Below, one piece after another: positions 9,737-43,758 of a stretch of DNA of 64,000 nucleotides. The notes under the pieces were generated by a model. That model was not told the origin of the DNA and did not search any database. It worked only from the letters and a program-made list of their open reading frames with translations. Origin of the DNA: Aquimarina agarilytica ZC1 (GTDB lineage Bacteria; Bacteroidota; Bacteroidia; Flavobacteriales; Flavobacteriaceae). Position 1 is the stretch's first letter; each line of letters begins with the position of its first letter. The stretch spans positions 174,969 through 238,968 of the forward strand of contig NZ_JH621246.1 of NCBI RefSeq assembly GCF_000255455.1, read 5' to 3'. The position numbers were made by a program, and so were the translations under genes.

Positions 9737-10333
9737 ATGGAAAAACTAATCTTAGTCTTTCTTTTTCTTACTTCCTCAATTGGGTGTGCTCAATTTAATA
9801 GTGATATCCTTTATTTTATTGATGGAGATTCTATTGAGGGATTTGTAGAAATTAAAAAGAATAAGATCAAATTTAGTTTGTCTAAAGAAGCGCCCGCTGA
9901 AACTTGGGATTATTTAAGTGTTGAAAAAGTTAAAATTTGCAGTTTTAACCACTGTAATTCTTTTGAATATGTTCAATTAAAAAAAGGGGCTAAACCCATT
10001 TTAATTGAATTAAAAGAAAAAATTGGAGGCATTTCCTATTACCAGAGAGAAAAACGTATTTTGAAACCAATTGATACTGATTCAAATTCGGATTTTGTGA
10101 ATATCGCCGACTTAACTAATGTGGATATTAAAATAATTGAGTATTTAAAAAAAGAAGGCCAATTATACCCAACTTGTGTTGACTGTGGTGTTCTTAAAAA
10201 TTGGAAACGCTTTATGCTTAAGTATTTTTCGGATTGTGAATTTATTCAAAACGAAATTAAAGCCGATAATTTAAAGGAACACCAAATCATTGAAATTCTC
10301 GATTTTTATAACGACACTGATTTTTGTCCTTAA
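9737..10333 (+). CDS. Small exported protein of unknown function downstream of aspS
   Basis: I do not recognise a family. The 198-residue product starts with a hydrophobic signal peptide (MEKLILVFLFLTSSIGCAQ). The Cys near residue 17 could be a lipoprotein cysteine, but the AQ that follows also fits a signal peptidase I site. The first part (DGDSIEGFVEIKKNKIKFSL) resembles the short beta-rich repeats seen in flavobacterial exported proteins with a 'DG..IEG.V' motif. Further on are a CVDC pair (~147-150) and a charged helical C-terminus. The start is 6 bases after the aspS stop, so it is likely translated from the aspS transcript. No link to tRNA charging is implied. Confidence 0.6.
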   Translation: MEKLILVFLFLTSSIGCAQFNSDILYFIDGDSIEGFVEIKKNKIKFSLSKEAPAETWDYLSVEKVKICSFNHCNSFEYVQLKKGAKPILIELKEKIGGISYYQREKRILKPIDTDSNSDFVNIADLTNVDIKIIEYLKKEGQLYPTCVDCGVLKNWKRFMLKYFSDCEFIQNEIKADNLKEHQIIEILDFYNDTDFCP

Positions 10334-11591: not shown

Positions 11592-11635
11592 AAAAAACTC
11601 CTGTAGGATTTAAATAAATCCTACAGGAGTTTTTT
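11592..11635. terminator. Perfect 20-bp orphan hairpin with A/T flanks
   Basis: Bases 11592-11611 pair perfectly with 11616-11635 around an AAAT loop; the core is CTCCTGTAGGATTT. It has terminator shape in both directions. The gene to its right already has its own terminator about 190 bases away, so this one has no assigned gene. Confidence 0.6.
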
Positions 11636-33569: not shown

Positions 33570-34580
33570 ATGAAGTTTTCGAGGAAGTTTTTATGGCCTT
33601 TTGTTCCCTTTTATTATTTGGGCAGCTTGACTATTAAAAAATTATATGACTGGGGTATTTACAAAAGCCGGTCTTATGATTTTCCGGTAATATGTGTTGG
33701 CAATTTAAGCGTTGGAGGCACAGGAAAATCCCCTTTTGTGAGCTACTTGATTGAATTGCTCCAAAAAGACAAACAACTTGCTACTTTGAGTCGCGGCTAT
33801 AAACGTAGTACCACTGGTTTTCATATAGCTACTGCTAATAGTACGGCGCTAGAAATTGGTGACGAGCCTTTACAATTTAAAGTTACCCACCCAAAAACCA
33901 TAGTTGCGGTTGATGCCGACCGAAAAAACGGCATTCACCAACTGCGCACTCAAAAAACACCTCCCGAAATTATTATTTTGGATGATGCTTTTCAGCACCG
34001 AAAAGTACAAGCAGGATTTCAAATTTTACTTACCGCTTACTATAATAGATATACCAACGATTGCATGCTACCTGCCGGAGATTTACGTGAACCCACTTCG
34101 GCAGCTGCCAGAGCTACAATAATTATTGTAACCAAATGTCCTTTGGATTTAAGCGATACGGCTCAACAAAAAATTATTGAACAGTTACAGCCTTTAGCCC
34201 ATCAAAAAGTATATTTTACAGGAATCGCTTACGCAGAAGACATTTATGCAGCCAACACAAAAATCAAATTAACTGCTTTTTTACAGGACTCCTTTTGCTT
34301 GGTTACCGGTATTGCCGAACCTGCTCCCTTGGTTTCGCATTTAAAAAATTTAGGTGCAAAATTTACGCATTTGAATTTTCCAGATCACCATGTATTTTCG
34401 CAAAAAGAATTAGATAAAATTAGTACACACAAACGCATTTTAACCACTCAAAAAGATTTTATGCGCTTACAACACGTAACTGCTTTAAAAAATAAACTCT
34501 TTTACCTTCCTATAAGCATTCATTTTTTAAATGCTGAAAAAGATTTTATACGACAAGTTTATGATTTTACATCGGATTAG
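33570..34580 (+). CDS. lpxK: Tetraacyldisaccharide 4'-kinase
   Basis: Phosphorylates the 4' position of the lipid A disaccharide at the inner membrane, late in lipid A synthesis. At 336 residues it is within the usual range. An N-terminal membrane-associated helix is followed by the Walker A motif VGNLSVGGTGKSPFV (~43-57). Family blocks LSRGYKR (~74-80), IGDEPLQ and ILDDAFQHR (~134-142) are clear. The start follows a putative -7 box by only a few bases, so a nearly leaderless mRNA is possible. It converges with the histidine kinase gene, and no terminator was seen in the 29-base gap. Confidence 0.95.
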   Translation: MKFSRKFLWPFVPFYYLGSLTIKKLYDWGIYKSRSYDFPVICVGNLSVGGTGKSPFVSYLIELLQKDKQLATLSRGYKRSTTGFHIATANSTALEIGDEPLQFKVTHPKTIVAVDADRKNGIHQLRTQKTPPEIIILDDAFQHRKVQAGFQILLTAYYNRYTNDCMLPAGDLREPTSAAARATIIIVTKCPLDLSDTAQQKIIEQLQPLAHQKVYFTGIAYAEDIYAANTKIKLTAFLQDSFCLVTGIAEPAPLVSHLKNLGAKFTHLNFPDHHVFSQKELDKISTHKRILTTQKDFMRLQHVTALKNKLFYLPISIHFLNAEKDFIRQVYDFTSD

Positions 34581-39927: not shown

Positions 39928-40131
39928 TTATGAATGTTGAGGCTCACTACAGTTTTCATATTGATCTGGGGTTTTCCCACACAAAGAACAAGATTCCCCA
40001 TCTTTATTTAAAAAAGGACTTTGACTTGCACATGTTCCTGCAAATTTTCCATCTTTTTTTGCCCAAATTTTAATTGCAATTCCAGCAAAAGCAATTCCTA
40101 ACAAACCAATGGTAATGAATAACAGTTTCAT
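39928..40131 (-). CDS. Small Cys-rich membrane protein
   Basis: A 67-residue protein of a type frequent in flavobacteria. It has an N-terminal TM (~4-24) and a short outside part with GTCASQSPFLNKDGESC and C-S-L-C-G-K-T-P, that is, Cys33, Cys47, Cys50 and Cys60. These could bind metal or form disulfides. No function is known. First gene of the glycosyltransferase-sigma operon, with a perfect -7 box just upstream. Confidence 0.65.
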   Translation of the reverse strand: MKLLFITIGLLGIAFAGIAIKIWAKKDGKFAGTCASQSPFLNKDGESCSLCGKTPDQYENCSEPQHS

Positions 40132-40153
40132 AATAAAGAAAATTATAAGACTA

Positions 40154-40161
40154 CAAATTTA
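40154..40161 (-). promoter_or_regulatory. Putative -7 box of the small protein-GT-sigma operon
   Basis: Minus-strand TAAATTTG matches TAnnTTTG, 22 bases before the start codon at 40131. Confidence 0.45.
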
Positions 40162-40554
40162 CAAATTCAAAATGACGAAAGCCGTATTCACGCTTTTTTC
40201 TTTTTCAAATACTTTTCTATGTATGCTTAAAAAAATCCATTCACCCATGAGCTACCTCATAAACTAACGTAAACTATATTTTTTAACTTAACCTTAGCAA
40301 TTCTGCACTAAAATTAAGAAAACACCAATATTTAACACACATTACAGACTTTTAGTTAAATTCTAACGCAAAATTCAAATTTAATCCATTAGTAAAAATT
40401 CAAAAAAATGCTATTTTTATCATATAAAACAAAATCCTGCTCGCTAAAAAAACAGTATTTTTCGACTAAGTATACCTATAGGATGTGAATCTATTTTAAA
40501 TAAAATAGTTTGCAGGAAAAAACCATTTTGAATCCACATAATGATGAAAACTTG

Positions 40555-40562
40555 TATTTTTG
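40555..40562 (+). promoter_or_regulatory. Putative -7 box of the orphan small RNA
   Basis: TATTTTTG fits TAnnTTTG. A TTTG at 40527-40530 could be the -33 element, but its 24-base spacing is longer than the 17-20 seen for the tRNA and proS promoters here. Confidence 0.4.
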
Positions 40563-40567
40563 ATACA

Positions 40568-40690
40568 GCTCAAACGTACAGTAATTTTTTTTAATTACAG
40601 AAAAAAAATAACAACTGCTCAAAGCAATCTCAACAAAGCTTGCTAAATCAACCAACCATGTCACTAATTAATTGTGACATGGTTTTTTTT
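40568..40690 (+). ncRNA. Candidate small non-coding RNA of about 120 nt
   Basis: A -7 box at 40555-40562 and a strong terminator at 40654-40690 bracket about 120 bases with no plausible ORF (only a 17-codon frame crosses the start). A second hairpin, GTAATT/AATTAC, lies at 40581-40598. The terminator can only work on the plus strand, because only there is a T-tract present. No upstream plus-strand gene needs it: the previous plus-strand gene ends at 34580. Confidence 0.5.
40654..40690 (+). terminator. Strong plus-strand terminator of the candidate small RNA
   Basis: AACCATGTCAC (40654-40664) pairs perfectly with GTGACATGGTT (40674-40684) around a 9-base loop, followed by a T8-type tract. Confidence 0.85.
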
Positions 40691-40742
40691 ATAAAAACTC
40701 TAAACAATCAATATTTTTGACGCTTCCTAAAACCGTAATCCC

Positions 40743-40902
40743 GGATTATGCATTAAAACTTGGTAGTGAATATTGAAAGCACAATAAATAAAGAATTTTC
40801 TTGATTTCAACATAGCACCATTATGTTTAAATCAAAAAATACAGCGAAGTGTTTGATTTTGTAGAGATTTCAATACAGAATAGATTTTTTAATGCATAAT
40901 CA
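40743..40902. repeat. MITE-like nested inverted-repeat element
   Basis: Outer arms GATTATGCATTAAAA (40744-40758) and its exact complement at 40887-40901 enclose inner arms TATTGAAA (40771-40778 with 40868-40875). A central hairpin of 14 bp with one mismatch (40801-40814 with 40822-40835) lies inside these. The layout, about 160 bp with 15-bp terminal inverted repeats and no coding capacity, fits a miniature inverted-repeat transposable element or a large structured RNA. No transposase is in the window. Confidence 0.55.
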
Positions 40903-41112
40903 AGGTTAAAACAAGATTTTAACACGTAAAATAAATCTAAACAACAATACTTTTAAAACCACTTCCTTTTAAATGTTTTTTTTCTTCGCTCAAAAACACA
41001 AAAATTAATAAAAAACCCTACACCATATTCCTTTGAGAGAAATAACGCTATTCAATTTAACAAAATCAACTTTTACTTATTTTTATTTCTTACAACAAAC
41101 AACTTAAAAAAA

Positions 41113-43758
41113 ATGAAAACAACTAAAAATTTAATGAGTCTCATAATCGCTTTTTCGTTTATGTGCATCTCTTTAAACGCTCAAATTTTTACATTAAATG
41201 GAGGCTATCAATCATTCCCAGCTCAAGAAGCCGGAACACCTGGCTCAACCAATGGAAATGTGCTTGTCCGTAAAGCACCTAGACCTACCGGAAATGTCAA
41301 TCGGTTAAAACAACTACTGAATTCAGCAACTATTCCCGATGTTGTTATTCAATCAAGACTTACCGAAGGCCCATTAGCAGGTTATATTGCTCAAATGCCC
41401 GCTGTAATTTCCACAGCAAACGAGCTTAATAACCGCCCCAATACGGCTAATGCTGCCAATGCGATTATTATTAACAATACAGCTAGTCTAAATGCTAACA
41501 GAGACAGAATTAGAAATGATCAAAATGCAACGTTTATTTTTAGAGGAAATGTAAACGTAAATGAACCTATAGTAGTAGGTTCTAACAAAACCTTTTGGAT
41601 TGATGGAGTCGTTACCTATACTGGTCCTAAAAGACCTTTAGCTAACACCGATGCACTTAGTCCTATTCCTATTATTAGAGATGGTATTTTTAGAATAGTA
41701 AGAGAAAGAAACGTAAGTATCCGAGGAACCAAAAGAGGCTTGGTAGATTGTAAATCCGAACTTCCTTTTGCATATACTTTAAATTCAAGAGAAATTACTA
41801 TTGTAGACAATGAAGTAATTAACGGATTTAATACTGTTTTTATTCACCAAACAAGAGATGTTACCATTGAAAATAACTTTTTTTACAACAATGTAAGAAG
41901 AGCTATGCACCTTATTGCCGTTAATGGTTTTTCGGTAAAAAATAATTTATGTTATGCTAGTCATTTGGACGGTATTGATGTAGATGCGTTTTGTCAAAAT
42001 GGAACTGTTGACCTTAACGTAGTACTTGGAGCTACTTTTAGATTTATGCTTTGGACAGAAATTGATGCTCATGACAATGTAATGAACAATAATGTAGCTA
42101 TCCACTTACCAGGTAGAAGAAGCAGAGGAAGAGGAGGAATGCAAGAAAATGGTACCGAAAACTCTAGAAGAGGTGTAGGCAACTTTCGTGGAAGCCGAAA
42201 TAATGACTGGATAAATAATCACGTATTTTACCCTGACACTTTTAGAGATGGAATTGTAATGCGTAGAGATCGTTTTATACAACACGGTACTATTAAGTTT
42301 GAAAATAACTATGTATGGTCTGAAGAAGGCAATGGACAAAGACACAATCCTAAGCCTCAAAACAATAATACTACTGATGTTCGCTTTTTAACTCTTAATA
42401 CTCCTGCTGCTGGAACAAGACCTAGACCTACAAATCTTTTTCCAAATGGCGGACCAGAAGTTCTTATAAATAGTTCTCCAGCTAATTTAACTGGCGCTCA
42501 AATAAGAGTTACTCCTGGCCTATTTGGCGGAAACGCTACACCAGCTCCAAACCCAACCCCGGATCCAACACCAACTCCAACACCAACACCAACTCCTGCA
42601 CCGCCAACAAATGGAGGGAATACAAATTTAGCTGTAGGCAAAACAGCATCTCAGTCAAGTAATTACCAAAACAATAATGACTTTAATGCTCAAAGAGCTG
42701 TTGATGGAAATACAAATATATTTACGCATACCAATAATGATGCTAATGCTTGGTGGGAAATTGATTTAGGAAGTGTATCACAGATTACTACTATTCAAGT
42801 ATTCAACAGAGCGGATTGTTGTCAAAACAGATTGCAAGGATTTCATGTATTAGTATCAAATAACGCTTTTACTTCCAAAAATTTAAACCAAACAATTAAT
42901 CAGTCTGGGGTAGGTAACTTTTTTACTGCTGGAGAAGCTGCAAGTCCAACAAATATTACTATAAACAGAAGCGGACGTTATGTAAGAGTACAATTAGCAG
43001 GAACAAACTTTTTACATATTGGTGAAGTTCGTATTAATGGTTCGGCCAATACCGGCGGCGGTAATAATGGAGGAACTAATAATCCAACATTTGTTTTAAC
43101 CAAACGAAATGCATCTGGTTTTTCTATTGATGGCAACAACGGAGGAGCTAATCAACAAAACGTGTATTTGTGGAGTAGAAATACAGGAAATATTAACCAA
43201 CAATGGGAAGAAATTGATAGAGGAAATGGTTTTTATAGCTACAGAAAAAAGGACACTAATTTTTGCCTAGATGGAGGTAATGGTGGCGCTAATGGGCAAA
43301 ATGTAAAATTATTTACTTGTGGAGCGAATAACCAAAATCAACATTGGCGAAAAGTGACTATAAATGGAAGTTTCCGATTAGAAAAACGTAATGCACCAGG
43401 TTTTTCAATTGATGGTGGTAATGGTGGAGCTAGAGAGCAAAATGTATACTTGTGGGCTAGTAGTAACACCAACCAAAATCAGCAATGGAGTTTTACAAGT
43501 GTATCAGGAGCTAAATTGCTAGACAATAACCAGCCTGAGATTACTTTTTACCCAAATCCAGCGCAACATACCGTATTTCTAGATAACATAGAAGAATTTA
43601 ATACTGTTACTATTTACGATATGCAAGGAGCAAAAGTATTAAGTAAATCACTAAATACAAACGACATAGATATAAGCAAACTAACTAACGGAGCATATAT
43701 ACTAGAGTTTAAAGGTGATACTTTTAAAAGAATAGAACGAATTGTTATTCATCACTAG
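41113..43758 (+). CDS. Secreted beta-helix CAZyme candidate with fucolectin-like and ricin-like domains, T9SS sorting
   Basis: Multidomain secreted protein of 881 residues. The signal peptide ends at LNAQ (~24). Residues ~70-470 look like a right-handed parallel beta-helix (repeats such as VRERNVSIRGTKRG, LNSREITIVDNEVINGF, TRDVTIENNFFYNN), the fold of many polysaccharide lyases and hydrolases. A PT-rich linker (~477-500) leads to an F5/8 or fucolectin (CBM47-like) domain (NLAVGKTASQSS, WWEIDLGSV; ~506-645). A ricin-type beta-trefoil follows with three S-I-D-G/C-L-D-G-x-N-G-G-A repeats and Q-x-W motifs (~658-800). The last ~70 residues (ITFYPNPAQH) are a T9SS domain. The binding domains suggest a fucose-containing or sulfated algal glycan. 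No catalytic residues or known family could be assigned. Confidence 0.8.
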   Translation: MKTTKNLMSLIIAFSFMCISLNAQIFTLNGGYQSFPAQEAGTPGSTNGNVLVRKAPRPTGNVNRLKQLLNSATIPDVVIQSRLTEGPLAGYIAQMPAVISTANELNNRPNTANAANAIIINNTASLNANRDRIRNDQNATFIFRGNVNVNEPIVVGSNKTFWIDGVVTYTGPKRPLANTDALSPIPIIRDGIFRIVRERNVSIRGTKRGLVDCKSELPFAYTLNSREITIVDNEVINGFNTVFIHQTRDVTIENNFFYNNVRRAMHLIAVNGFSVKNNLCYASHLDGIDVDAFCQNGTVDLNVVLGATFRFMLWTEIDAHDNVMNNNVAIHLPGRRSRGRGGMQENGTENSRRGVGNFRGSRNNDWINNHVFYPDTFRDGIVMRRDRFIQHGTIKFENNYVWSEEGNGQRHNPKPQNNNTTDVRFLTLNTPAAGTRPRPTNLFPNGGPEVLINSSPANLTGAQIRVTPGLFGGNATPAPNPTPDPTPTPTPTPTPAPPTNGGNTNLAVGKTASQSSNYQNNNDFNAQRAVDGNTNIFTHTNNDANAWWEIDLGSVSQITTIQVFNRADCCQNRLQGFHVLVSNNAFTSKNLNQTINQSGVGNFFTAGEAASPTNITINRSGRYVRVQLAGTNFLHIGEVRINGSANTGGGNNGGTNNPTFVLTKRNASGFSIDGNNGGANQQNVYLWSRNTGNINQQWEEIDRGNGFYSYRKKDTNFCLDGGNGGANGQNVKLFTCGANNQNQHWRKVTINGSFRLEKRNAPGFSIDGGNGGAREQNVYLWASSNTNQNQQWSFTSVSGAKLLDNNQPEITFYPNPAQHTVFLDNIEEFNTVTIYDMQGAKVLSKSLNTNDIDISKLTNGAYILEFKGDTFKRIERIVIHH
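42538..42612 (+). repeat. Thr/Pro-coding linker repeat
   Basis: Repeated CCAACACCAACT-type codons encode the T-P linker between the beta-helix and the fucolectin-like domain. Such tracts may vary in length between strains. Confidence 0.6.

Follow-up and report, generated by a model that had tools for sequence, protein, structure and literature searches.

The locus lies in contig 1 of a 4.25-Mb Aquimarina genome (G000), within the 64,000-nucleotide stretch that was analysed as a whole and is called the window below. It occupies part of a 980-bp intergenic region, which is bordered on the left by a 67-aa open reading frame on the minus strand (39928-40131), found in 50 of the 56 genomes of the first draw and without a Pfam match at E ≤ 0.001. 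The right border is a plus-strand gene (41113-43758) for a T9SS-sorted protein that contains F5/8 type C and ricin-B lectin domains and whose role as a polysaccharide enzyme is putative. The first ~500 residues of this protein have no Pfam match, yet they are 94–95% identical in two other Aquimarina genomes, G005 and G082, and matches to them occur in 9 of 66 Aquimarina genomes. The preliminary description had set the locus between a sigma-factor operon and a T9SS enzyme: the immediate left neighbour, however, is the 67-aa frame, a glycosyltransferase and the sigma factor lying beyond it. The intergenic region also holds a copy of a dispersed, MITE-like repeat of ~160 bp (40743-40901) with inverted ends GGATTATGCATTAAAA and TTTTTTAATGCATAATC, which has at least 41 further matches in the same genome, with fragments of a single copy counted separately in some cases, and ~180 bp (about 40221-40400) without counterpart in G082 and G005, possibly another insertion. 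The features of the locus are as follows; G082, G005 and G057 are the other Aquimarina genomes in which it was found.

40430-40554, plus strand: conserved upstream footprint, alignable in G082 and G005 about as well as the RNA, not recognisable in G057
40491-40508, no strand assigned: palindrome CTATTTTAAATAAAATAG, a possible operator judged from its sequence, imperfectly retained in G082 and G005
40555-40562, plus strand: TAnnTTTG box TATTTTTG, putative -7 box; TATTTTTG in G082 and TACTTTTG in G005
40568-40690, plus strand: putative small RNA (sRNA) of ~123 nt, its 5' end placed from the box and its 3' end from the terminator
40581-40598, plus strand: A/T-rich inverted repeat GTAATT-tttttt-AATTAC, a weak hairpin, present in G082 and replaced in G005 and G057
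40607-40623, plus strand: conserved unpaired core AATAACAACTGCTCAAA, the proposed pairing region; 12 of its first 15 columns are invariant in four species
40623-40644, plus strand: weak middle helix, AGCAA (40623-40627) with TTGCT (40640-40644), 90% of cells paired
40654-40690, plus strand: intrinsic terminator with an 11-pair stem, a loop of 9 and a T run, found by the strict scan; two-sided changes in 3 of its 11 pairs, pairing in 97.7% of cells

The preliminary description had proposed a box, a terminator and a second inverted repeat at this locus, and all were recovered where it had placed them: the TAnnTTTG box is TATTTTTG, exactly at 40555-40562, the terminator reads AACCATGTCAC-taattaatt-GTGACATGGTT at 40654-40684 followed by TTTTTTAT, and the inverted repeat GTAATTttttttAATTAC spans 40581-40598. 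The ~120 nt between box and terminator are indeed without a gene, and no reading frame is conserved there. A coding function was considered and rejected: the short frame that opens at ATG 40541 is reduced to ATG-TAA in G005, and indels occur within the core.

TAnnTTTG is described as the sigma-A -7 box of Flavobacterium psychrophilum (PMC9723704). As the plus strand of the window carries 44 such motifs, the box alone is weak evidence, and its weight comes from its retention in G082 and G005; in G057, TAAATTTG stands in its place, somewhat further upstream of the core. No TTG was found 17–23 nt upstream of the box, where a -33 box would normally lie; a TTTTG ends 24 nt upstream. In G082 and G005, the block that precedes the box (40430-40554) is about as conserved as the RNA; it may therefore be an extended promoter or regulatory region or, less likely, belong to the 5' part of a longer RNA, and the palindrome within it (40491-40508) is a possible candidate operator.

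The ownership of the terminator was addressed by a strict scan of the plus strand (stem of at least 9, at least 4 G-C pairs and at least 6 T of 8), which returned nine rows corresponding to eight distinct terminators in the window, compared to none in each of five 64-kb first-order Markov sequences. The hairpin at 40654-40684 was absent from the output of the standard terminator scan; its loop of 9 is above the limit of 8 of that scan. By inspection, five of the eight come directly after a plus-strand open reading frame, and for those at 11597 and 46176 the 3' end of a minus-strand open reading frame or tRNA is 284 and 307 nt away. The terminator at 40654 is the only one of the eight towards which no gene or tRNA end points within ~310 nt, in agreement with the earlier claim that it has no other owner. 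The gap without plus-strand genes upstream is large, as had been noted, but it is slightly shorter than the >6 kb given: 5.99 kb separate the locus from the nearest plus-strand open reading frame of at least 130 aa, which ends at 34580, and the shorter plus-strand frames in between overlap genes of the opposite strand. The terminator had also been called one-directional, which is true in the window and in G057, whereas in G082 and G005 the T run on the opposite strand is at least as good.

We then compared the locus with 66 Aquimarina genomes. The segment 40450-40700 has matches in G082 (84%), G005 (76%) and G057 (83% over 52 nt). A covariance model, R1, was built from the four carriers (88 positions, 16 pairs) and scored them at 110.1 (G082), 109 (G000), 96.2 (G005) and 83.8 bits (G057); as the carriers match the model by construction, the informative part is the gap to the other hits, the next match in the 66 genomes reaching 44.5 bits. 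Conservation in close relatives, the absence of which had been named beforehand as refuting the proposal of an sRNA, was thus found: 4 of the 66 genomes carry the unit. In all four, it has the divergent 67-aa gene on one side and the gene for the T9SS-sorted protein on the other. Along the intergenic region, identity to G082 and G005 is confined to three islands: 40131-40190, which adjoins the 67-aa gene, ~40430-40700, and 40971-41112, which precedes the exported-protein gene. Between the islands, most 30-nt steps have an identity of 0 to 0.5, and the sRNA island is flanked by DNA that cannot be aligned. In G057 the upstream block is lost and the 5' part is different.

When 397 Flavobacteriaceae genomes were drawn, G000 alone matched R1 at E ≤ 1e-5, in a search whose stricter filters may miss weak matches; evidently, this even draw did not include the other three carriers, since they scored far better than the cut-off in the genus search. 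At E ≤ 0.5, R1 matches were obtained in at least 59 of the 66 Aquimarina genomes. Nine of the weak loci (L164-L172), read by eye, are terminator-like and show no core, except for the one in G061 (3 mismatches in 20). No other copy above 42.8 bits was detected in G000, the 42.8-bit match being the opposite strand of the hairpin itself. Stretches of the form AATAACAACT-nn-TCAAA, which resemble the core, occur close before terminators in G000 (C18:31985, L220) and G061 (C16, L165), possibly by chance.

Folding of 40568-40694 gave z = -4.42 against 200 shuffles. The terminator pairing is kept among the carriers: one pair is broken in one species, and in G057 both bases have been exchanged in 3 of the 11 pairs (one U-A to C-G, two C-G to U-A), which are the compensatory changes that the preliminary description had asked for in relatives. 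Of the five pairs of the weak middle helix, one shows a two-sided change and two are each disrupted in a single species. In the four-sequence alignment as a whole, two-sided changes affect 4 of 16 pairs, a number that falls to 0 or 1 once the partners are shifted by 1–3 columns. The covariation score was reached by 5 of 500 shuffles, and every two-sided change comes from G057 alone; covariation from four sequences is therefore good, not overwhelming. The second hairpin fared less well: the repeat at 40581-40598 is real, but its bases are paired differently in the fold predicted for the entire RNA, and the predicted folds of G005 and G057 place other hairpins in the equivalent stretch. The core is fixed. 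In AATAACAACTGCTCA, 12 of 15 columns are invariant in the four species versus 15 of 32 across the remaining linker, and AATAACAACnnnTCA is unchanged in the most distant carrier, G057, despite its three replaced terminator pairs.

Comparison of these sequences thus delimits a unit with defined ends, conserved in a clade and with a terminator whose pairing is maintained. On this basis, we propose that 40568-40690 is probably (at about 0.78) the gene for a stand-alone, non-coding sRNA of ~120 nt, confined, among the genomes searched, to one small clade of Aquimarina and most likely acting antisense. The earlier proposal of a new sRNA gene is therefore supported: the unit is present in three related species at the same site, with two-sided changes in its terminator, it is non-coding, and it has no Rfam match. 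At the gathering score no Rfam family matched the locus, the best sub-threshold score being that of PyrR (27.6 bits versus 54). The 6S-Flavo RNA (RF01685) was rejected as a candidate, as it has no match at the locus and the genome has its own copy elsewhere (G000:C5:87977-88085, 96.3 bits). In the mechanism that we favour, transcription of the sRNA would start from its own sigma-A type promoter and would be ended by the intrinsic terminator, the hairpin of which would protect the 3' end. The unpaired A-rich core, AAUAACAACUGCUCAAA (40607-40623), would pair with a partner RNA, antisense regulation being the most likely mode of action; the low degree of structure, together with the fixed unpaired core and the terminator, suggests the anatomy of an antisense sRNA.

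Since the gene at 41113 is on the same strand and lies next downstream in every carrier, the unit might instead be a leader (attenuator) of this gene, with transcription starting at the box and either stopping at the terminator or reading through it. However, the distance between terminator and start codon varies from ~250 to ~590 nt and the DNA in between is not conserved, the dispersed repeat being located there in the window. The enzyme gene is moreover preceded by a conserved island of its own (40971-41112), and the flanks of its close homologues in G077, G085 and the second copy of G057 contain no R1 match, all of which makes a leader very unlikely. We consider as the least probable reading that the locus is only a terminator, or the 3' remnant of a lost gene, and that no functional RNA is made. 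The TAA at 40609-40611, within the core, could be read as the end of a former gene, and the two terminator-proximal stretches in G061:C16 and G000:C18 have a similar AATAACAACT sequence. Yet no frame ends at this TAA, because an in-frame stop lies eight codons ahead of it, and a remnant would need neither the stronger conservation of the core relative to the remaining linker nor the retention of the upstream block.

To look for partners of the proposed sRNA, sites complementary to a 16-mer of the core were searched with up to 2 mismatches, using the reversed sequence as control. There was no excess over the control in G000 (10 versus 12), G082 (13 versus 12) and G057 (9 versus 10); in G005, where the core itself departs from the pattern, 17 sites were found versus 6. 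One site, with the same letters in all four genomes, falls in the linker of a second, undescribed RNA-like element, RNA2, which lies outside the window (G000:C1:146110-146257; L200:1405-1552). RNA2 combines a TATTTTTG box with a hairpin whose loop is CCTGAGCAA, a linker that does not vary and a strong terminator (CCAGGCAG/CTGCCTGG followed by a T run). It is present in 12 of the 66 Aquimarina genomes, including all four sRNA carriers. Its hairpin covaries; across the RNA, 7 of 28 consensus pairs have two-sided changes, and all 12 copies share 35 identical nt, AGTTTAGTTTTTTGATTAGTTGTTATTCCAGGCAG. An Rfam search with the G000 copy gave chance-level scores only.

RNA2 is the best partner lead, and the sRNA could bind it as a decoy, or sponge, a special form of the sRNA reading that we regard as unlikely. 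In its favour, (i) the core pairs with the linker over 16, 14, 14 and 16 of 17 nt in G000 (with one G-U), G082, G005 and G057, respectively, (ii) only 3, 1, 5 and 1 of 300 mononucleotide shuffles pair as well, (iii) every one of the four carriers has RNA2, and (iv) the linker is unpaired in the consensus fold of RNA2. However, the site came from the search, so that these shuffle figures are after the fact, and the local scan of core versus linker was chosen after the result of whole-length folding, which strings loops together. Whole-length duplex folding gave no signal (88, 574, 304 and 67 of 1000 dinucleotide shuffles as good), and the pairing of RNA2 is surpassed by 3 of 44 gene starts of the window and equalled by 4 to 6 of 60 random 130-nt segments. 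The linker is also equally invariant in the eight genomes that have RNA2 and, at the sensitivity of the R1 search over the 66 genomes, lack the sRNA; its invariance therefore does not depend on the sRNA. These points make the decoy reading a lead only.

Of the three partners compared in the four species, RNA2 alone keeps its pairing, with an energy that is not exceptional. For the start region of the enzyme gene, 12, 7, 6 and 31 of 40 shuffles were as good and no site was kept; for that of the sigma factor, the value was -15.8 in the window, and the best site was different and weaker in the other three species. Among the genes of the window, 9737-10333 scored best for pairing (-18.5 with the window copy).

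The eight genomes with RNA2 and without the sRNA were also inspected at the corresponding site. The 67-aa gene is present in seven of them and was not found in G069, which is 69% complete. All seven have an open frame of 90 codons or more with one of its ends 74–152 nt from the start of the 67-aa gene, and no core together with a terminator was found at the site. G020 has one weak 7-pair hairpin within the open frame near the 67-aa gene, and G077 and G073 have isolated core matches with 3 mismatches, more than 590 nt from it. The position is shared by the sRNA and the exported-protein gene in the four carriers only. A circuit of two RNAs, in which RNA2 would be a regulator in part of Aquimarina and the sRNA would have arisen in one clade, next to the gene of an exported protein, as its decoy, is conceivable but unlikely. 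RNA2, better conserved and likewise without an Rfam match, may be a more useful lead than the sRNA. For its part, the sRNA is clearly delimited, has a fixed core and occurs in just 4 of 66 Aquimarina genomes, so that it might offer an example of an sRNA gene of recent origin.

To our knowledge, few small RNAs have been characterised in Flavobacteriaceae. A literature search returned nothing on Aquimarina sRNAs, judged by titles and the beginning of abstracts, and nothing joining sponge RNA, sRNA and Bacteroidetes. Sponge RNAs, which bind other small RNAs, are known from other bacteria; the likeness here would be the complementarity of the sRNA core to the unpaired linker of a candidate small RNA, RNA2, with a pairing energy that is not exceptional. 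The 6S-Flavo RNA is also a flavobacterial small RNA, of similar length, but is encoded elsewhere in the genome. Two other systems were compared by their descriptions. GibS of Bacteroides thetaiotaomicron is described as an intergenic sRNA of ~145 nt with tested targets and pairing through its 5' end (PMC7366714). As far as that description goes, both would be intergenic sRNAs of Bacteroidota with little structure, a conserved single-stranded pairing region, an intrinsic terminator and a conserved promoter (putative in Aquimarina), whereas the core of the Aquimarina sRNA lies in the middle of the RNA and GibS pairs via its 5' end with targets that have been tested. Rfp18 of F. psychrophilum, as outlined in PMC9723704, is a flavobacterial intergenic RNA in a species whose sigma-A promoters carry TAnnTTTG; it is strongly structured and genus-wide, in contrast to the Aquimarina sRNA, which is little structured and found in one clade. 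With no claim to membership of a family, the Aquimarina sRNA would thus resemble in kind both GibS and the independent transcripts of F. psychrophilum.
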